A stretch of DNA of 64,000 nt from Trichodelitschia bisporula (Eukaryota > Ascomycota > Dothideomycetes > Phaeotrichales > Phaeotrichaceae), in assembly GCA_010356995.1 (NCBI GenBank), contig ML996701.1, forward strand, positions 153,952 to 217,951. Direction: 5' to 3'. Shown here one piece after another: positions 2,299 through 64,000 of the stretch. A program made the position numbers and the translations under genes. Numbering within the stretch: position 1 is the first letter of the stretch; every line of letters starts with the position of its first letter. The notes under the pieces were generated by a model. It was not told the DNA's origin. It did not search any database and saw only the letters and a list, made by a program, of their open reading frames with translations.

Positions 2299-5200
2299 GG
2301 GGGGAAAGTGAGGTGGATGAGTTGAAAAAGAGGGTGGTTATGGATCGTGATGGAGCTCCTCAGTAGGGATTTGTTCGTTGGTGGGTAGGGGGGATTGTGT
2401 GCGGAAGGGATGGTGGGTAAGTGAGGGGGAAAAGTAGACAAGGGTATGTTGGGAGAAGAGAGTATTGAGTGTGAGTTGGAGACCGAGAGGGTGTGGGAGA
2501 GAGACGGTTGTACGCTATACTCTGCTACACCTGGCGTTGGTAGAGGGTGATGATAGACAGCGTAGCTGGCAATAAGATGTTCCCAAATGGAGGGTGAAGA
2601 GAGGCCCAGGAACACTACTGGGATGGCGCGATGCTGAGATAGTCTGTTGGCAGGGTAGGATGGAGAGCAGCAGCAGTGAAGGCGTGAGAGATGCAACGCA
2701 GGACAAGGATGAGGTCTTGTAGGCGACGCTGCAGGCCGACGGAGGGCTAGTCGAGTCCCTAATCAGTTGCAACGGCTCTGCAAGAGCGAAGTAGAGTAGA
2801 GATGGTGGGTGAGGTTGTGGTGGTGGATGCGGAGCTGCTGGTGGAGATGCTGGAAGACAGGTGGTGGTGATGAATGCACTGTTGTCCCTCGTCGCTGCGA
2901 AGAAAGCGAGTTGTAAAGGGTTGCGAAGGAGTGAAAGTCAAGAAGGCAAAGTGCCGAATACCACGATCTGTTCCGTACTCTCTAGGGCGAAATGACTGTT
3001 CGTCGTTGTCGGTACGGGCATTTGCCCATCAACTGCGTATGTAGTCATGGCGTAGAAACTGCACCCCATTCTTCTCGTCTCCTTCTATTGGAAGGGGATT
3101 ATGGCAGAGATGGGCGTGGTCTCCTGTGGGCTTGGGTTGCGATAAGACTCGGCATCATCCGCAGCCCATGGCAAAAAAGAGGACGACTACGTACATTAGC
3201 GAGGCCGGAACCACGCACTCGCCAGGGCGCCCTAACTACGGAGGTAGAGCACTCGCTATTCATGCTGCTGTACCACCATCACGGCCTGCAGAAAGGTGTG
3301 AAGAGAGGCCGCAGTCGTTTCCAATTCCTGCAGTACGTCAGTACCGTACATGAGCCTCATCCACCGTTCCCTCCGTCGTCTTGCTCTTCCTTTCACCCAC
3401 CATCCACCATCCAATATGTATCCATCATCTCTGATCAATCATCTTCCATCTTTCATTCGTCCTCCATAATCCGTTCAATATCAATCATCCACTCAATATC
3501 CCTCCATCTTTCCCCCCCCAGTCCCAGTCCAAAGGACCATCCAACCATCCTAACCAACCCCATAAATGCCCTCGCAACCTTCTTTCTCACCGGCTGGCCT
3601 TGCGTCCCGCGCCATCGTATTGGCCCGACCAAGTTCTGCCGTGGAAAGCAGAAAATGACGACAAAGCAGCCAGCGCACTCCCGCTGGATCGCATATCAAT
3701 GGCGCAGCCCATACTCCTTCCCGTTCCTATAAGCCTACTTTTTGTCCGAAGGAGACGCGTGTGGGGGATGCCACAAAGTGGTTGACGTTGCCCATTATCC
3801 TGTGCCAGGTTGCCGCCCCCCCCCCGCTCCCGCTCCCCCCCATCCTGCCCCACCAATTTTTATCCCTCGACCCACCCCCGCCATGTTGGAAATACCGTAC
3901 ACACTCTTTGCTCCAGCAGCCAACACCGCTCCACATGTTTCTCACTTCTTCACATGCTCAATCCATACAGAACCGCACACACCTCGCTTTCCCCCTCAAC
4001 AACGCATGACAAAGAGAGACGGCGGTACAGATCACTCCATATCCAACCCAATCAGCCGCCCCTCCTCCCCCAGCTCCGCACCCCACCCCCGCCAAAACCC
4101 TCGTAACCTTCCTACCCCACACCCCTCACCTCACCCGCCAGACAACCGAAACTAATGCCGTCAATCCCGCCGACGCACACGCCCACTAGAAGCAGGTACC
4201 AGCACCTACCCGCCAGCCTTATCGTACTCCGTAGCCCTATCCTTATAAACCTCCTTCATCATCCTCCATCCTCCCTCTTCCTGCAGCTCCATCGAAGCTC
4301 CCGCGGCTTCCTAATCCGCTTCCCGAGTCCATTGCGTCTCCTCCCTCCCGTCCTCAGCCATCATCTTCTCCATATGCTCACGCGCCCCTCGCCCTACGTG
4401 TGTGATCGGTCTAGTTCGCCGCCGTGACGACCTCCCGCCATTCCAGGCCACTGATTCGCCCATCCCGAATCGTCGTCACACTTCCTCACCGCGACATCGG
4501 CTCAGTTCGCCGCGCTCGCCACCCCCGGTGCTGACGGCTCACTGAGTGCAAGACAACTGCTCGGCCAGCGATTATATCCAGCATTGCTGAGAACATGCTC
4601 TTCAACCCTCAACATACGCAAAAAAGGCCACCAGGCCACCCGCCGAAGTTCCCGAAATTCAGCCAATCGTTCCTTCCTCCCCACCCCCACTAGCTCGCGC
4701 TAACCAATCTCAACTCAAGCGCGCCAAGTCCTTCCTAAGGAGCACTCACCAGAAAACCTAACCACCCACCCTTGGCACGTTGAATTTCGCAGCAAAAGCC
4801 CAAAGAGTTCAAAACTCGGCGCTGATTGTCCACTCACAGTCTGCGCCCTCCGCGCCTAACCTACCCGTCTCCACGTCCCCCGGCCAGCGGCCGCGCACTG
4901 GGATACCGCAGTACGAGGCGCGTAAAATGTCACTTTGAGATTACGAAGTTCGCCGTGCGTTCGTCTTCGTGCACGGAATTGCGAAGAAAAAGTCGCCGTT
5001 GTGCTCTCTCGCTGCGCGCCGCGCCCCTGGCCCTGTGCGGCACTGGGGTGCTGGTGGCCCATTCGCGTTCCGGCGCGGGGCTGGGTTCTGGCCTGGTCGG
5101 CCTGGGCGCGGTACGGTAGGGCCGGGGTGGGGATAGGGCGGCCGCGGCGGCCGCACTGCTGGCCGGGGTGTGATTTGTGCGCTGGCGGCCCGGTGGGCTG

Positions 5201-8200
5201 GGTGACGGGGGGGGGTGTTTGGGGGGAGGTGATTTGCGAGCTTGCGAGGAACCGTACCGTACTCGAAGGGAGTTTTGTCGCGAATGGTGGAGGGTGGTAT
5301 CTTGCGCTTGTCGCGAGGAAAGGCCGAGGGCGAGGCTATGGCTTTTCTTCTCAGCCGCGCCCGCGCGGAGGATGGGAGGCGCCGCGGTTCGGTTCACCGC
5401 GCGCGCCTTGCGGCTTGGCGCCCCCTCCACACCCCGGGCGGGCGGCCGAGCCGACGGCTCCCGCTCCGCACCGCGGCGCTAGCGGTGACCGTGAGCTCCA
5501 CCCCCGCAGCCTTGTGGGATGGTCTCTAAGGTCGATGGCTGAGGTCAAGGCTGTAAGGCGTGATCTGCGATGAACGCAGGCTGGTACGGATGTGGCGCTG
5601 AAAGCGTAGACGACGCAAGCTGATATCACGGCTAGACTTGGCTGGGCGGAGGCCGCGGGCGGGAACCCGGGCGATGGAAGGAGGCTTGCGTTTGAGAGTT
5701 CACGCGGCTGCGTTTTTGCGGTGGGTGAGGTGGGGGTAGGCGGAGAGGGAGAGTGGGGGTGGAGTGCGGGAGTTTCTTCTTGCGAGGAGTATAGTTGCGT
5801 GGTAAGGCTGGGAGCCGTGCCATCTGGTTTTATGCTCTATGCATCTCGTATTGCGCGGTGCCGCTGGTAGCCGCGCTATGTACGAGTGAGTACTTTCCCT
5901 CATGTTGCGCGACGCCTTCCTCACCCGCCCGGTGCGGGAGCGGGGCGGAGCGGAACACGCGGGGGCGGGGAGGCCCTTCGACTTACCAGATTGGATGAAG
6001 ACGACGCAGCGTCGCGATGCTGTACCGCATACGTCTTTGCCTATCCATAACGCGAAGTATAACAAGCGCGATACTCCAGCCCAAGTACTGTAGCTTCGGC
6101 GCAAGTACAATAGCGGCGGCCCTAGCAGGCGGCCTAAGCGGCCCTCCCTCGACGCCAAACCGCCTCGACGCCAAACCGGTGAACGAATCACGGCACCCGG
6201 AGCACGCACCCCTTTGGTGACGCTTCAAGGCGGAGGTGGAGTGGAAGTATTTGTTTTTAGCGGGGATGCTGGAGAGGGGGAGTGGGAGGCCGCTGATGCG
6301 CGCGGCTCGGAGCGGGGGTATGTTCTTCCTTTGTACCACGGACAGGTACATCGTGTCGTACTTGGTCTGAGGGAAGAGCCGCGCCGTAGGATGGGGATGC
6401 TTGCTGGTTGGGGATGACCTGCGTGCAGCGCTGGGATGGGTGGTGGTGTGATATGGCTGCGGTGCTGGGTTGGCTGGGAGTTTGGTAAAGGTGGAGGTGA
6501 CGAAGTAGGTACCGATGTACATGCGATGTACATCCAGGTTGATGCTCTTATATGACCCTTCTATTCGACAGGAACAGAAGATTCACAAGATGGTCGACTC
6601 TGTTGTAGCATCACACGATCCACTAACCGCATACCATCCGATAGAAGAAAAAGAAGCACCGATCTGCAGTGGCCATATAAAACCACGCCGCACCTTCTCT
6701 CGCAAACAGCACAACTAGCAGCGCCGACCGGCTCCAGCTCATAACCCTCGAACCTCAAAATCTTCTCCATCCCCCTCACCAACAGGCCCATTCCCTCTCC
6801 AAAGCAATCTCCAACCAACAAAACCCACCAAACACTCGATCCTGCATGCCATTGTCCGGATTCCGCCGCCGATCCTGCCCAAACGGCCCACCTTTCCTCC
6901 CCGGCCCCAAGGCGTCTCCCACACCAATGTTGACTGTCGACCAGGGTGTGCGCCTGCAGCAATCAGAAGCTGCTTCGCCTGCGGCCGTTAGGCCGGCGGA
7001 CGCGGGCCATGAGAGGTTACCGTCGACTTAGACGAAATTCCCAGATATTGGAGCACGACCGAGCCTTGGGTTGTGCCCGTTCGCACCAGGGAGAGATTAT
7101 TACGCTGAAAGCATATGGTAGGCGATAAGCCGCGCTTCCGCCGGCCACCCCAGCTGCGATCACGGTCCTGCACTCTAACACCCCTCAGCCATCGGTCCTT
7201 GCCAGCTGGCTACCCTGTTCACACAAGAGACACCGCAGCACCAAAAGCGCATCCCTCGCGAACACACCACCGCGCCTCTCCCACCCCTTCCCTCTGCCAG
7301 CCCCCCAGTCCCTCCCAGGAACCCACCACTCACCAACGCCCTCTTACCAACCTCATCCCTCCCCTGTTCCCCCCAACACCGGCGCAAATCCACCTCACCG
7401 GGCTCCCGCACGTCAAATTCGCCAAAACCTTCAGGCCGATCCGCAAGCAACCCCCCCTCTTCCGCATCGCTTCGCTTTCAACCCGCAGCGCATCAGTGTC
7501 GCCCACCGTATTCCAGCATCCCGACTCCCCTCGTCAAAGTAGCAAGCACCGTCCCTCCCTAGTCCGACCGCAGACCGCACATATCAACCCCGCCCGTCCC
7601 CATCTGCCCGCCGCCGCATCCGGCGCTGGCCCAAGTGCTTGTGCGACCACACCGATCCACCCCCCCGCTCCCGTCATCAAGGCCACCCACCCCGCCCCGC
7701 CCAACGTCCTCGGCTCACCCAGCTCCGCACGCAACGCACCCGTCGTTGCGCGTGCTCCGGCTCATCAGCCCTCGCTCCGCCCTCGGTCTTTCCATCCAAC
7801 GGCCCGGATGCCACCGCACGGCTTATCGGCCCGTAGCGCCAGACCGGTCACCCCGCCCCTCTCAGGCCGCGCGCCGATCCTCCCGCATCGGGCTCGGGGA
7901 CCGGTGGGGGATCGCGGACGGGGGAAGGAGCGGGAGCGGTTGGACGGGAAGAAGCGGGCGAACGAGGGGTAGCGAGGCCGCCTAGGTGCGGGGTGCGCTG
8001 ACGTGTGCTGCTCGTGATGCGCTTGTGTTACCGTGGCGTTAAGGGGAGCGAGCCGAGGCGAGGGGAGGTTACACGACGGTTAAGCAGCGCTGCGGGGCGC
8101 TGTATTGAGCGGGTCGGGGTCCGGAGGGTGGGCGGGGGGCGCGGGAGCGGGGAGATGCCGAGAAGCTGATCGGCGGGCTGCGGGTGAGGCGGATTGGAAC

Positions 8201-39870: not shown

Positions 39871-40974
39871 ATGCATTTTAATACCTGGTCATTAGTCCTC
39901 GCGAGCTGCTGGCAAGTCGCCGTAGCGATCCCGCAAACCAGCTCTTCAACACTGGCGTGCAACAACTCACCGTCGCTATGCAGCCGCGCATTCAATAACG
40001 TCACTCATCTTGGAGCGCACGACAGTCCGTTCGTTTCGAATTCGTCCAACAAGTACACCTCGGCCGGCAACCAGTTCTTCGACAGTATCACTCAGCTCAA
40101 CGCTGGTGTGCGGTTACTCAGCGCGCAAATCCACACAGCCGACGACTCGTCTTCGGAATTGCGTCTTTGCCACACGAGCTGCAACATCTACGATGCCGGT
40201 ACACTGGTCTCCTGGCTATCCGGCATCAGCTCGTGGCTTGACGCGAACCCGAGTGAAGTAGTGACGATCCTCATCGTCAATTCTGTCAACGCCGACGCCT
40301 CACGCCTCAATACCGATTTTACCGCATCGGGTATCACCAAGTACGGCTTCAAATTCACCTCTAGCAGCACAACGACCTGGCCGACATTGCAATCACTTAT
40401 CAGCGCCAACACCCGTCTAGTGACCTTTGTGGCATCACTACCCTCCGGCAATGCTGCCGCACCCTACCTTCTTGACGAATTCACCTACGTCTTCGAGAAT
40501 CCCTACACCATCCTCTCCCTCAACAACTTCACCTGTATCCCTGATCGCCCCACCGCCGTTGGGGGTTCACCCTCCGCGGCAGCCCAGTCTGGCCGCATGT
40601 TCCTAATGAATCACTTCCTGGACAAGGCGCAGCTTTTCGGCGAGATCCCGGACATGGACAACTCGACCATCACCAACTCGCCGGATACGAGCATCGTAGG
40701 CAGCCTCGGCAACCATGCGGCAGCGTGCAGGTCAACATATGGGCGATATCCGACATTTACGCTTGTAGATTGGTTTAACGTGGGACCAGCTATCGCTGCG
40801 GTCGACGACATGAATGGAATTAGCGATGCCACGGGACGGACGTCGGTTAGCTCGGCTGTGCTAAGCCAATCGGGTCAGAGCGCCTCGTCGGGAGCGTCGG
40901 GGGCACCGGCGAGGGGGAACAAGCTGGCTTTGGTGCTGGGAATAACGGTCGCCATCGTGCTTGGAAGGGTGTAG
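39871..40974 (+). CDS. Secreted, probably GPI-anchored PLC-like phosphodiesterase
   Basis: A single-exon gene of 367 aa. A signal peptide (residues 1-19) precedes the PLC-like TIM-barrel start THLGAHDSPF, with likely catalytic His50, then GNQFFDSITQLNAGVRLLSA and the second His101 in LCHTSC. The block WLDANPSEVVTILIVNS and the LVDWFNVG near the barrel end match the fungal PLC-like phosphodiesterase family, related to PI-PLC X domains. The C-terminus is Ser/Gly/Ala-rich and ends in a hydrophobic stretch (LALVLGITVAIVLG), which suggests GPI attachment at a small residue near 345. The substrate of this family is not established; lipid or cell-surface phosphodiester cleavage is inferred. The ATG at 39871 sits after a C/T-rich leader. 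Confidence 0.88.
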   Translation: MHFNTWSLVLASCWQVAVAIPQTSSSTLACNNSPSLCSRAFNNVTHLGAHDSPFVSNSSNKYTSAGNQFFDSITQLNAGVRLLSAQIHTADDSSSELRLCHTSCNIYDAGTLVSWLSGISSWLDANPSEVVTILIVNSVNADASRLNTDFTASGITKYGFKFTSSSTTTWPTLQSLISANTRLVTFVASLPSGNAAAPYLLDEFTYVFENPYTILSLNNFTCIPDRPTAVGGSPSAAAQSGRMFLMNHFLDKAQLFGEIPDMDNSTITNSPDTSIVGSLGNHAAACRSTYGRYPTFTLVDWFNVGPAIAAVDDMNGISDATGRTSVSSAVLSQSGQSASSGASGAPARGNKLALVLGITVAIVLGRV

Positions 40975-41230
40975 ATGTTTTTGCTTTTGGCATATATTGG
41001 CGTTGGGGAGCTGGCGGGCACTTGCATATCCTAACCGGAGTTTGATGGGAAGGGAGGATTGGATAGACACATTATCAAAGTCATGTTGCATCAGGACTAC
41101 AGGGGTCATAGGAGACAAGAGTCTCCATTCATAAGTTCGTTCATTAACTGATGCCTTGATTCATGCTGTCAACCAACAGCGGTATAGTACGTTGTACTAA
41201 CTCCGTACGGATCTATACGGATTATACTCT

Positions 41231-41436
41231 GTCACGGTATGACACCCGGTTCTGCTGCTCCATGGGCTCGCACCATTACCGGGTTTGTATGGGGCTTGGT
41301 GCTGTGCCAAGCCGCCACACTCACACTCACACACCAGGCCTACTTACCCGCAGCCCCTAACATCTTTGCTCCGTAGCTTTACAATCTACGTCTTACCCAC
41401 ATCTTGATCGTGCATGCGTGATTGTTGACGGTGACA
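41231..41436 (+). repeat. Left terminal inverted repeat (206 bp)
   Basis: Inverted copy of 42715-42926. It carries the CACACTCACACTCACAC microsatellite, which is 6 bp shorter than in the right arm. Confidence 0.93.
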
Positions 41437-41794
41437 TATTGTAAAGCTCCCTGTTTCAAATCATCAACACAAACCTGGGGAAGCTTCTCCCTCAAAAGAG
41501 ATCACTTTCGCAGGCCCCTGAGAAAACAGAACTCTCGGAGAAACAGCTTTGCTGAATCGCGGAAGAGTCTGGAAACGTGCGAGCGTTTGCTACTAGCAAT
41601 CGAACTCTGTGGCTGCCTATTCACCAGTCCACTTCTCTGTCACTGCATAACTTTGGAAACACCACACCACGATCGCGGAGACTGCAAATCTTCTCCTCAA
41701 TCGCCTACCTTCCTCCATCCACCGAACCACTCTACGCGCCTAGAGAACTAGTGGACGAGAACCTCTGTCAATTCAGATCTTAAGATATACCACC

Positions 41795-41896
41795 ATGGAT
41801 ACCGAGATGTTTGACGCTGCCGCTACGGCAGCGCCCCAGGGTGGCGACGGAAACCGTCCGGTCGAGACTGGCGAGCAGGCTGTAGTCATGCCCTAG
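41795..41896 (+). pseudogene. Truncated coding-like fragment inside the inverted-repeat element
   Basis: The ATG at 41795 has an ideal context (ACCACCATGG) and opens 33 codons (start MDTEMFDAAATAAP, end VVMP) to TAG at 41894. The same frame then continues with coding-like composition (IAVTKDQEEAVIILTHES) for another 27 codons to a TGA at about 41978. It looks like the 5' end of a gene captured or left over in the element and stopped by one nonsense codon. No family is recognised. Confidence 0.35.
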
Positions 41897-41994
41897 ATAG
41901 CCGTTACCAAAGACCAGGAAGAAGCTGTTATCATCCTTACCCACGAGTCACGTCACAGCCACGTCGCAGCCACGCACTGAGATATAATCAGCAT

Positions 41995-42049
41995 CCTAAC
42001 CCTAGCCCTAACCTAACCCTAACAGACTAAGCTAACCGTAACCCTAGCC
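41995..42049. repeat. Interstitial telomere-like tract
   Basis: Positions 41995-42023 read CCTAAC-CCTAGC-CCTAAC-CTAAC-CCTAAC, that is CCCTAA-type repeats with small errors. A looser continuation (CTAAGCTAACCGTAACCCTAG) runs to 42049. It is at the centre of the inverted-repeat element, far from either window end. Confidence 0.88.
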
Positions 42050-42714
42050 TGATACGGCAATGTAAACCTTGGCGCCAAGATTATGTTCCTATCGCGTGGC
42101 TTTGGCGTGGCTGTGGCGTGCGGGAAAATCCTAGCGCCACACCCCATCAACATCGTGACATCCAAACTTCAACACGCGATGCACGCACAAATACTTGATA
42201 AAATCAAGCGTTCTTATGTTTTGCCGCATCGCCTTGATTAGACGCATCTTTTGACACCAGTATCGGCGCTTTTTGGATGACTCTTTTGGCACCAAATTTT
42301 GATGGTTGAAAGCGTTGTCATTGGCTCGCGATTTTTGAATTTTCCTAGCGCGTCATTAGCTGCACGTGAGGGGGTGGATTTAAGAGCTCGATTTAAGAAA
42401 AAGAGTGTCATGGTCTCAGCACGCCAGGCCCTGCCAGTGCGTTGCTGAACCATACCACGTGATGTAGCCGCTCGGTGCCAAGTCCAGGGTCCACTGCCAC
42501 CCCACACCTGCATTTCAGTTCTAGACCTTTCACGGTTCCTCTTTATAGCAGCATTTTCAGTCATACACGCATTCAGTGCATTGGATGTCCCAGACGTTGC
42601 CCGTGACAAAGGGGAGGTGGATGTAGCCCGCCCCTATAACTAAGCGGCTCTTAGTTGAAGGGCATAGACGTTTTAATAGGTATATTAAGTATAACGTATT
42701 TTTAGAGTGAAGTG

Positions 42715-42926
42715 TGTCACCGTCAACAATCACGCATGCACAATCAAGATGTGGGTAAGACGTAGATTGTAAAGCTACGGAGCAAAGATGTTAGGGGCTG
42801 CGGGTAAGTAGGCCTGGTGTATGAGTGTGAGTGTGAGTGTGGCGGCTTGGCACAGCACCAAGCCCCATACAAACCCGGTAATGGTGCGAGCCCATGGAGC
42901 AGCAAAACCGGGTGTCATACCGTGGC
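42715..42926 (-). repeat. Right terminal inverted repeat (212 bp)
   Basis: Inverted copy of 41231-41436, starting after TGTCAC at 42715 and ending in CCGTGGC at 42926. Confidence 0.93.
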
Positions 42927-42931
42927 ACTCT

Positions 42932-43641
42932 CACCGTTACTTAATCGTGTCAGGGGCGCACAAATCACTGGTTGCACAGCATTGGTTGTGGAATAACATT
43001 CATTAAAAGCTTGAAGAACTATGTAAGGGTTTCGCGTGTGAATGTGGAGTGTGGGGAAGCTGGGGGTGCTAGCGCACAGGCCAGCGCCAAGTCCTTACCC
43101 CTGCATGTCTAACTGGGCTGAAATTGCAGGGATCAGGCATCAAGCTTACCGAGTCACGTGAGCCATACAGGGCATGTTGCGACTTGACATGGGAGAGATG
43201 GTATCCTCCCATGACAATCCTCTAAGCTAACTATATAGCCTGCAATATTTGCTAAGCAAATATCTAATAGGTAAGCGCTAAGATACTTAGGTAACAAGTA
43301 TCAACTGCTACTGAGGAAGTTGTAGCGACCTCCATAGGTACCTTCTATCTAATATACTCGCACCTCGGCCACCCCTGTTCCGGGGTCCCCAGCCATGGGA
43401 ATATGTGGCACAGGTGGCGCTGTTGCGCTGTGGCGCGTGAAGGCGTTTCTAGAACAAATGCACGTGCCACGCTACTCAGTCAACCCCCCAGGCGAATGAA
43501 GTGCCCAACATCTCCCCCGCAACTTCACAACACCCCATTAATATAACAACAAAGCTCTACCCCGCTTCCCCACGCCCCTCACCTGCAGGATATCGACGCT
43601 CAACCGTCTCCACCAGTTCTACCATACATTGCGGTTTCGCT
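42932..43641. other. Intergenic region upstream of the F-box-like gene
   Basis: About 0.7 kb without a recognised gene. The middle (43200-43350) is AT-rich with several short ATTTGCTAAGCAAAT-like palindromic stretches; the last 150 nt are C/A-rich leader-like sequence. Confidence 0.45.
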
Positions 43642-44841
43642 ATGGCTCCTGCGACTTTCCACCCCTTCCTCCGACTCCCTCCAGAGCTCCGCGACATCAT
43701 TTACTCCTTCGTACTCGCTGGCGTTGCCGATATTGACGTGGACGATGACCCTGAGATGACCGAACATATTGACAGCCACTACTGGGCCGTTGCACTTTTT
43801 GCTGTCAGCAAACAGGTGCATGACGAGAGCATGCGGATCTTTCATACCGTCAACACGTTTATCACGTTTGAGACTCCATGGGATGACGCCCACTCCGAAT
43901 TCCGCCTCAAAGATCACGTACAGATCATCGAAACGGCTTTTGGTAGTACGCGCCTGCCGCCCGTGTTCCAGAAAGTCCATCTCCACGCCAAGATTGACTC
44001 GCAGCGGGTTGGAACAGACCAGTACAGCCGCGGCCGCACTATCGTTCTGACTTTTGACGATTTGGAACGGGTGTGCAAGCTCTGGATGTACACCGACATC
44101 AATCGCAACTGCGCCCTCAACGGTACACTGCGACTCACCTTGACTGTGAACAACCCTGTGGGTCCTGATCCGCCGCCGCTGGCGCTGCAGAAACGGCTGC
44201 TCGAACCGTTTGGGTACATCAAAAATCTGCGTGCTCTAGAAGTCAACGGCATGCAGCATGAGGAAGCGACCATGAGCATGAAGGCGCTAATGGATGTACC
44301 TCTTGAACCTGCGGAGGACCGCCTTGCAGCTACCACACAACTCAAGGATGAAGGCAACGCGGCTCTCAAGACAGACTCGCGACTCGCAATCAAAATCTAC
44401 GAGAAAGCATTCGAGAAGTTACACATCATTTGCGAAGGGCGGCGGAGACACGAGTGGGGCGACATCTGGTTTGACCGGACGATGAAGTACGGCGAGTTTG
44501 AAGGACAAAACGGCCTCAAAATCCGGACTCAACTGCGCACCCGTCTGGTCGCCAACGTCATGAAGGCGTACCTCGACATGGGTGAGTTCGAGGAGACAAT
44601 ATTCTGGGGCAAGCGCTCACACAACATCATCAACGGCCATTTCGGTCCACACCACGGCCCCATTCCGTCATTTCCGGCTGCCCCTCAGCTCGGCAAGATC
44701 TACTATCGTTTGGGCGTAGCCCTGAAGGCGATTGGAGAAACCTCTGAAGCTCGTCACTACCTGTCCATCGCTCTGAGCTTCCTGCCTGAAGATCAGACAA
44801 TCAGACAACTGCTCTCCACCGTGCAGCTGACCCTTGGGTAG
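43642..44841 (+). CDS. F-box-like/2EXR N-terminus with TPR-like C-terminal repeats
   Basis: A single exon of 399 aa, from ATG 43642 (context GCTATGG). The N-terminus FHPFLRLPPELRDIIYSFVL is the fungal F-box-like/2EXR motif. It is followed by the typical 'LF.VSKQVH.E....F...N.F.F' block (VSKQVHDESMRIFHTVNTFI). The C-terminal half holds TPR-like helices: LKDEGNAALKTDSRLAIKIY, then KAYLDMGEFEETIFWGKRSH and a final unit YYRLGVALKAIGETSEARHY. Such proteins are numerous and mostly uncharacterised in Pezizomycotina; an SCF-adaptor role is only a possibility. The frame is open 47 codons upstream without an ATG, and homologous motifs start right after the chosen Met. Confidence 0.85.
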   Translation: MAPATFHPFLRLPPELRDIIYSFVLAGVADIDVDDDPEMTEHIDSHYWAVALFAVSKQVHDESMRIFHTVNTFITFETPWDDAHSEFRLKDHVQIIETAFGSTRLPPVFQKVHLHAKIDSQRVGTDQYSRGRTIVLTFDDLERVCKLWMYTDINRNCALNGTLRLTLTVNNPVGPDPPPLALQKRLLEPFGYIKNLRALEVNGMQHEEATMSMKALMDVPLEPAEDRLAATTQLKDEGNAALKTDSRLAIKIYEKAFEKLHIICEGRRRHEWGDIWFDRTMKYGEFEGQNGLKIRTQLRTRLVANVMKAYLDMGEFEETIFWGKRSHNIINGHFGPHHGPIPSFPAAPQLGKIYYRLGVALKAIGETSEARHYLSIALSFLPEDQTIRQLLSTVQLTLG

Positions 44842-61405: not shown

Positions 61406-62799
61406 GGAGTGTAGGGTTGGGAAATGCACCCCCACAAAATCATTTTCCTTAACGTCCGGCCAATACGAGATTTGTACTATTAAAGAAACTTGTATGGGTG
61501 GCTTTAAAAAATACTAGGTTGGTGCTTTCTTTAAAAACCTTCTCCTCTAATAACTGAACCAGAGGGTTGTGTATGTAGGATGTGCACCTGACCTTTTTTT
61601 GGTGTACCTAATGGTTCCTGAGAGTGATAGAGAGGAGATACAAGAGGAGAGAGCCCAGAGAATTCCGCAGAACATTAAAACACTCAAGAGATATTTGGGA
61701 AAAGGAATTCAGTTGGTCCCGGACTGTATGGAGGTCCTAGAACCTTACACTTAGAGACGGCGGACTGTAGAAAGTCGCTGTGGTTGGGCACTAAAGGTAA
61801 CAAAGTTTTCTAATTTATTGCAATCCTTATCCCCTACGATAGGCTTGTGGTGAAGCTTGGCAATTAAGTGCCCGGCTGAACAAAACATCTGTAGCATCTA
61901 ACCCCACATATTGTAACTGGATTGCAGCAAAGCAGTACCATCGTGCAAGTTGTAGGCCTACGACCTCTTTCAACAATCTCTTATAATGTCGGGGCGTGTA
62001 TTTAAGGTGGGTAACCTGGGACTTTAGGCCACCTCTAACAGTTTCCTCTATGCGGTCCGCAATTCTGTGTAATAAAACTTCTTTGTTACCTTATTAACCG
62101 ATATCATCCATTCACATCAGGATGTCGGAAGCTGAATCACGGACGTAGCCTAGGACTATGCACCATCTCTGGGAGTCCCTTCAGGTCGCAAAGCTTATTG
62201 AGGAATTATGGTCCTCGGGAATATACCGAGCCCAGCCTTTCCAGCAACCCCCCGCTCTAAAAGAATATATACCGGCATGATCACAGTCTCAACCTTTGGA
62301 GTCCTTAGAGAGGGGCGCTTCAATTCTCAGCTTCATGTACAAGATAATTGCTAGAAATCCACATTCAAGGCCCTTTCGCAGCTAGTTAATCTCCAACGGA
62401 GAGAGGAAGAGAGTGCACTATTTGACGACATATCTCACCATAAGTCGTCATTTCAGGTTCCGAAAACAATTTATTGGGCTTTAGACCGGCGCGGCAAACA
62501 TTGCTGAATAACCAAAAAATAAACTCGTTACTAGAAGGAGCTGATGGCTAGATGGCCATAACTATGCAGTGTAAACGGCGCAATGGACACAGCTTACCGA
62601 CTAGCGAGACATCTTTTAAGCATAGCATGTGCGACATAAATAGCATATATACCTTGTCGAGAATCTGGTACTTCAAGAGAGGTAGCAAGAGTACTCGAAT
62701 GCATGGGGCAATCTTGCTGCGAAGCGCTATGCGCATAATCCCTTACACCGCTGCGGTTCAAGCAGCGGTTTAAAAAAGAGTCTCGGGGCTGGAGTATAT

Positions 62800-64000
62800 G
62801 CTGCGGTTTATTGGACCTAGTAGGGGCCTACGACCGAGTCTCCCATGAAATACGGCTTCACACACTGAGGCAAACCGGGATCGCTGGGAAAATTGTCCGG
62901 TTCATCGGCAGCTTCCTCACGGAACGAACCACCACCCTCACCTTCAGCGGATTCAAAAGCAACCCTATCCAAACGCAAACTGGAATCCCTCAAGGCTCCC
63001 CCCTCTCCCCATCCTCTTCCTCATCTACGCAAAAGGACTCCTAGAAACATTCGAGAAGCCCAATCCCACCGCACCACAGCTTTTGGGTTTGTAGACGACA
63101 CATACCTCATGACTTCCGGAACCTCCGCGGAAGCCAACTGCAGGAGACTAGAAGAAGCTCACGACGCATGCATCGAGTGGGCGAACAGACACGGCGCAGG
63201 CTTTGCCCCAGAAAAATACAAGCTGATCCATTTCACAAACAAAAGGCAAACGCCCACTGCCACAACAAACATCGAGGGAATCGCAACCCCTCCGGTTCAG
63301 TCCCTAAGGATCCTCGGAGTATGGGTCGACCCAAAACTCAAACGGAAAGCCCACGTCAAGGTGACAGCCGAAAAAGCAATGAAAAACTTCAACGCGTTAA
63401 GTAGGCTATCCGCCTCGGTGGCAGGCCCAAGTCTCAACCTCACACGCCTCATTTATGTGTCTACGGTCCGAGCAATCATGGCCTATGCCTGCAGGGTATG
63501 GGCCTACGATCTCCCAAAACGACTTTGAAGATCATTGAAGCTGTACAGAACGAGTGCCTCCGAAGAACCACCGGGGGGTTCCGGAGGGCCCCAACAGCAG
63601 CACTGGAAAAGGAAGCGGGAATTCCCCCGTTAGGCCTGTACCTAAGAAAGATAGCCTACTGGCAATCAATCGAACACCACGACGAGGACGAGGAGAAATT
63701 CATCAGGAAACGCACACGAGCCTACTGGGCCGGAACTACCCCGCGAAGAGGCCGGAGGCCCCCAGAACCCACATACCCTGAAGACAAAATGCTCATGGAA
63801 GCGAAGGCGATTGTGGCAGCGGCAGACCCCTCTCAGGCGCCAAGAACGATCTTTGGCGACTGGGAGAACCAAGAATGGGAAGCCCTGTGGAGAACCAACG
63901 GATAGAAACAGGCACCAGCCTGGCACACTCCCTGGAAGGAATACGTCCCCAACCTCCATGGTGGACTACTGAAGGCCAACAGCGCCGTAGCAACACAACT
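62800..64000 (+). pseudogene. Non-LTR (Tad/LINE-like) reverse transcriptase relic, right end outside window
   Basis: From about 62811 the plus strand encodes reverse transcriptase blocks: LDLVGAYDRVSH, the TGIPQGSPLSP motif and GFVDDTYLM with the catalytic F-V-D-D. The thumb-like LRILGVWVDPKLK follows, then the post-RT region (QNECLRRTTGGFRRAPTAAL). The frame is broken near 63003 (a base is missing in a run of C), broken again near 63510-63525, and stopped by TAG at 63903-63905. Coding-like sequence in that frame (WHTPWKEYVPNLHGGLLKAN) still runs on to the window edge. The part of RT upstream of 62800 is not recognisable. The copy is therefore dead. Order of motifs and sequence style match fungal Tad-like elements. 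Confidence 0.85.

Follow-up and report, generated by a model that had tools for sequence, protein, structure and literature searches.

The closest described systems are Tf1 and Tf2 of Schizosaccharomyces pombe, self-priming Ty3/gypsy retrotransposons of the Tf1/sushi group. According to an excerpt of a review (PMC7175516), Tf1 RNA begins with 11 bases that can pair with the primer-binding site (PBS) of the same element. Tj1 of Schizosaccharomyces japonicus has likewise been proposed to prime itself, with a segment of its 5' LTR complementary to the PBS, and it inserts upstream of Pol III genes (PMC4600332, in excerpt). Unequal recombination is known to leave lone LTRs that lack target-site duplications (PMC7251063, in excerpt).

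Here we examine a locus of Trichodelitschia bisporula within a window of 64,000 nucleotides (contig ML996701.1, positions 153,952 to 217,951), where an initial annotation had described an inverted-repeat element at 41231-42926. Searches covered the 30 contigs of the genome, 25.65 Mb in all. We conclude that the arms are two LTRs from a retrotransposon of known type, placed head to head amid other transposon remnants, and that the locus does not represent a novel class of mobile element.

Results

The inverted arms and their edges

The window does contain two nearly identical arms in opposite orientation, and their true limits extend one base further outwards on either side than first annotated. 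The features of the locus are collected in Table 1. Aligned to each other, the arms share 204 of 207 bases; the three mismatches are transitions, and a 6-bp indel falls within a CACTCA repeat. Identity is 98.6% when gaps are left out, complementarity is 98% within the ungapped pieces of 121 and 103 nt, and the similarity is far above chance level. The TGTCAC/GTGACA tips are found on each arm, and the view that each arm is a unit of its own was borne out: both are complete copies of one repeat, A. As had been remarked, no transposase was recognised between the arms; the A copies of the window hold no enzyme gene, and a search of the window against Rfam at gathering scores gave no match.

Table 1. 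Features at the inverted-arm locus, in window coordinates
Feature	Position	Strand	Remarks
Left outer flank, TACTC	41225..41229		left-hand member of the left element's putative target-site duplication
Left arm: 5' LTR of family A, 207 bp, TGTCAC..GTGACA	41230..41436	+	
Putative self-primer, AGCTTTACAAT	41375..41385	+	inside the left LTR (LTR position 146-156), complementary to the PBS
Leader of the A element and start of the frame in gag position	41437..41947	+	ATG at 41795, stop inside, broken at 41947
Putative self-priming primer-binding site, ATTGTAAAGCT	41438..41448	+	one base past the LTR, 11-nt match
Partial copy of palindromic repeat C, carrying a degenerate CCTAACCC core	41949..42342	+ (as read)	
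Solo LTR of family B, 203 bp	42406..42608	+ (as searched)	flanks AAGAG / AAGGG, 4/5
Single-copy stretch separating B from the right arm, 106 bp	42609..42714		one match, itself
Right arm: second A LTR, inverted	42715..42927	-	flanks in LTR sense GAGAG / CACTT, unmatched (1/5)
LTR-like repeat D, 269 bp, TGTCAGGG..CCATGACA	42948..43216	+ (as read)	

The direct ACTCT said to flank the arms is present at both edges (41226-41230 and 42927-42931), but each copy overlaps the adjoining arm by its terminal base. Strictly outside the pair stand TACTC on the left and CTCTC on the right, 5-mers that differ, agreeing at 3/5 positions, a level that a random pair of 5-mers would reach about one time in ten by hand calculation. 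No partner 5-mer was found for the TACTC to the left of the left arm, and no second copy was found of the sequence beyond it (40500-41229). Neither flank of the right arm contains A-internal sequence, a purine tract or TACTC.

The arms belong to a dispersed family

That each arm is a dispersed repeat was absent from the earlier description, which had left recurrence as a prediction. Our search of the same genome placed repeat A (~207 bp) at no fewer than 27 places, the window and fragments included, and showed the arms to be mobile. Of these places, two are the window arms, two are the LTRs of an element at C23, 17 hold further full-length copies and 6 hold fragments. A has TG..CA ends, and a 5-bp target duplication flanks the 17 other full-length copies exactly in 10 cases and at 4 of 5 positions in 2. 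It is absent from the remaining five (C15_7, C23_338, C3_1871, C26_68 and C23_92). The flank of C3_1871 is 3'-internal sequence of the element, and C26_68 and C23_92 count as one event because their flanks are common on both sides. C23_338 (C23:338289-338494, L007) shares its left flank with C2_1902 (C2:1902667-1902869, L021) and differs from it on the right, which suggests an exchange between elements, near contig ends.

The larger copy that the initial annotation had hoped would reveal a source transposase does exist, although its enzymes are those of an LTR retrotransposon and not a transposase. It is a structurally complete element of 6.1 kb at C23:55569-61674, with two A repeats in direct orientation that are identical across 208 columns, GGTTT as the outer flank on both sides and a purine-rich tract preceding the 3' LTR. 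The first frame (514 aa) is called gag by position alone, no Pfam gag model reaching its cut-off against it. The second frame encodes a protease and a reverse transcriptase (RT), and the third RNase H, an integrase zinc-binding domain, the integrase core and a Tf2-1-like SH3 domain. The protease, RNase H and integrase zinc-binding matches all exceed their Pfam cut-offs, as does the SH3 domain that follows the integrase core (50.7 bits, cut-off 30); a Chromo match in the third frame scores 17.2 bits against a cut-off of 25.1. Among solved proteins, Ty3 Gag-Pol is the best relative of the third frame, and the domain order is that of Ty3/gypsy elements, PR-RT-RH-IN, with PR and RT in one frame and RH, then IN, in the next.

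The two pol frames of the C23 element overlap (L059:2552-4255 and 4233-6434), and the RT match ends near the end of the first of them. Separately, a weak reverse-transcriptase match lies near the right end of the window (62796-63026, corresponding to C15:216747-216977; 30.9 bits, cut-off 29.6).

Given the TG..CA ends, the 5-bp duplications and the C23 element with its direct copies and pol domains, the arms are almost certainly LTRs. The proposal that they form a composite of two miniature terminal-inverted-repeat elements is thereby replaced. Like MITEs, A is a short dispersed repeat with inverted tips; unlike them, it has TG..CA ends, its arm is followed by a PBS, and it derives from a gag-pol element in which direct copies serve as LTRs. 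Judged by its sequence, family A is a Ty3/gypsy-type LTR retrotransposon with a Tf1-like, putatively self-priming layout.

The left arm together with 41437-41947 is the broken-off 5' end of an A element. Aligned with the opening 720 bp of the C23 element, window sequence 41230-41947 shows 94.7% identity, with 22 transitions and 11 transversions in the first 718 bp. Repeat-induced point mutation is unsupported as their source, C>T plus G>A changes numbering 12 and those the other way 10, in a comparison whose direction is not polarised.

A putative self-priming layout

ATTGTAAAGCT and AGCTTTACAAT are reverse complements of each other, both in the window and in the C23 element. As a control, 2000 shuffled LTRs and 280 internal 20-mers were compared, and no case of 11-nt complementarity appeared; the best internal 20-mer attained 10 nt, one below the observed match. 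We infer that the LTR segment AGCTTTACAAT marks the start of the RNA in family A. By homology, the 5' end of the transcript would pair with the PBS and prime reverse transcription, and the integrase of A would insert the cDNA with a 5-bp duplication.

The surrounding repeat cluster

Repeats B, C and D share with the A arms a 2-kb intergenic cluster. The neighbouring reading frames lie at 39871-40974 and 43501-44841; for the second, the in-frame ATG at 43642 was chosen by inspection. The second LTR family and the partial palindromic repeat between the arms were also missing from the earlier description.

The A sequence switches abruptly to repeat C at 41949. Relatives of C with both halves lie at C18:742489-743026 (L041) and C3:979867-980403 (L040; palindrome arms of 217 nt, 90%), and the window copy is 68-79% identical to both halves of these palindromes. 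The reported telomere-like core is indeed there, at ~41995-42050, but it is degenerate and belongs to this unrelated palindromic repeat. The CCTAACCC stretch is common to the window and C18 copies and was not seen in the C3 copy. No run of four exact TTAGGG units was found anywhere in the assembly, and we reject a telomeric origin of the core on this ground and on that of the stretch shared with the C18 palindromic repeat. Repeat C is low-copy, with a weak extra match at C5:465534.

Among 11 other B copies, the 5-bp flanks match exactly in 8, at 4 of 5 positions in 2 and at 1 of 5 in the last. D occurs at 30 places, fragments counted; the window copy, whose 5-bp flanks match at 2/5 positions, starts 20 bp past the right arm. 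Outside this locus, 7 pairs of A, B or D copies lie within 500 bp of each other, as against 0.09 expected under uniform placement, with distances taken from midpoints and some pairs involving fragments or nested copies. At C12, for example, an A copy sits inside pieces of B. Copies within 10 kb of a contig end number 11/27 for A, 2/14 for B and at least 8/30 for D, compared with 2.3% of the genome. Contigs tend to end at repeats, and since a TTAGGG-type telomere repeat was not found, this proximity is not to be read as subtelomeric targeting.

ARAGORN identified no tRNA in the window and one tRNA gene over 50 loci, many of which carry only ~500 bp of flank. This gene (L006) was called Ser; with introns allowed, the same place was again the only hit among all loci and was called Phe. 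Insertion targeted to tRNA genes is unsupported by these counts.

Origin of the inverted pair

Among the 21 full-length A copies, the closest relative of each arm is the other arm (tree support 88/77, with the bootstrap not settled). At the same time, 23 of the 210 pairs among these copies are more alike than the two arms are, gaps left out, and the identity of the arms does not require conversion between them, one of the two causes that the earlier description had offered.

The reading we consider probable is that the arms are two Ty3/gypsy A LTRs from separate insertions in opposite orientations, followed by local deletions. We favour separate insertions because non-element DNA lies on both sides of the right arm, other insertions lie between the arms, and A, B and D are often clustered. 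The left element, if full length, would have lost ~5.4 kb in a deletion that starts inside gag and takes in the left portion of repeat C. Recombination between its LTRs would have left the right element as a lone LTR, its duplication being lost through recombination with another element or a neighbouring deletion. As that target duplication is absent, the independent insertion of the right arm is something we infer.

The nearest-relative status of the arms would also fit a common insertion. Both could be LTRs of one element whose 3' part was later inverted, or whose cDNA was rearranged by self-integration, with deletions afterwards. The arms are nearest neighbours separated by three transitions and one indel, as such a history would have it; however, the right-arm flanks contain no A-internal sequence, purine tract or TACTC, the 106 bp of single-copy DNA and the solo B LTR stand between the arms, and the 23 copy pairs mentioned above are more alike than the arms. 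We regard this reading as unlikely, and its more specific form, in which a single insertion entered the genome with its LTRs already inverted, as quite improbable. Self-integrated cDNA is a possible source of inverted-LTR insertions. Inversion by recombination between inverted LTRs was considered and is unsupported: it would swap target duplications between the arms, and TACTC and CACTT agree at 3/5 positions, while the inner flank of the left arm is the PBS region and not a duplication.

Even less probable is that one LTR was locally duplicated in inverted form, or that the arms were gene-converted. The 98.6% identity and the nearest-neighbour position would suit such an event, but the inverted similarity ends at the LTR ends, a boundary that insertions would produce and a random duplication would not; conversion between two LTRs already in place may have occurred, though with low probability. 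Finally, that 41231-42926 is a single inverted-repeat DNA transposon, or a pair of miniature elements moved as a unit, is very improbable: despite the long inverted arms and the ACTCT at both edges, the unit has no shared 5-bp duplication (outer 5-mers 3/5 alike), it encloses single-copy DNA and other repeats, its arms occur singly elsewhere with 5-bp duplications of their own, a search of the whole unit against its own genome yielded no second copy, and the parent element is an LTR retrotransposon.

Discussion

In its layout, family A appears to resemble the Tf1/sushi group, with self-priming putative. A and Tf1/Tf2 have in common their LTR ends, the SH3 domain of Tf2-1 type after the integrase core, and many solo LTRs. 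A differs from Tf1/Tf2 in an LTR of 207 bp, that of Tf1 being longer, and in the two overlapping pol frames of the C23 copy. The 11-nt PBS complementary to the element's own LTR recalls the arrangement in Tf1 (PMC7175516, in excerpt), and the pairing of a 5' LTR segment with the PBS recalls that proposed for Tj1 (PMC4600332, in excerpt). A is unlike Tj1 in its surroundings, a single tRNA gene having been seen in the 50 loci scanned and none in the window.

Were the pair of arms to have entered the genome in inverted-LTR form, the locus would record an aberrant product of retrotransposon replication. As matters stand, what had been taken for a new inverted-repeat element gives way to a retrotransposon family whose layout for putative self-priming is clearly Tf1-like. 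Of modest interest, the recurrent close clustering of A, B and D points to common insertion preferences or to sites at which insertions are tolerated.
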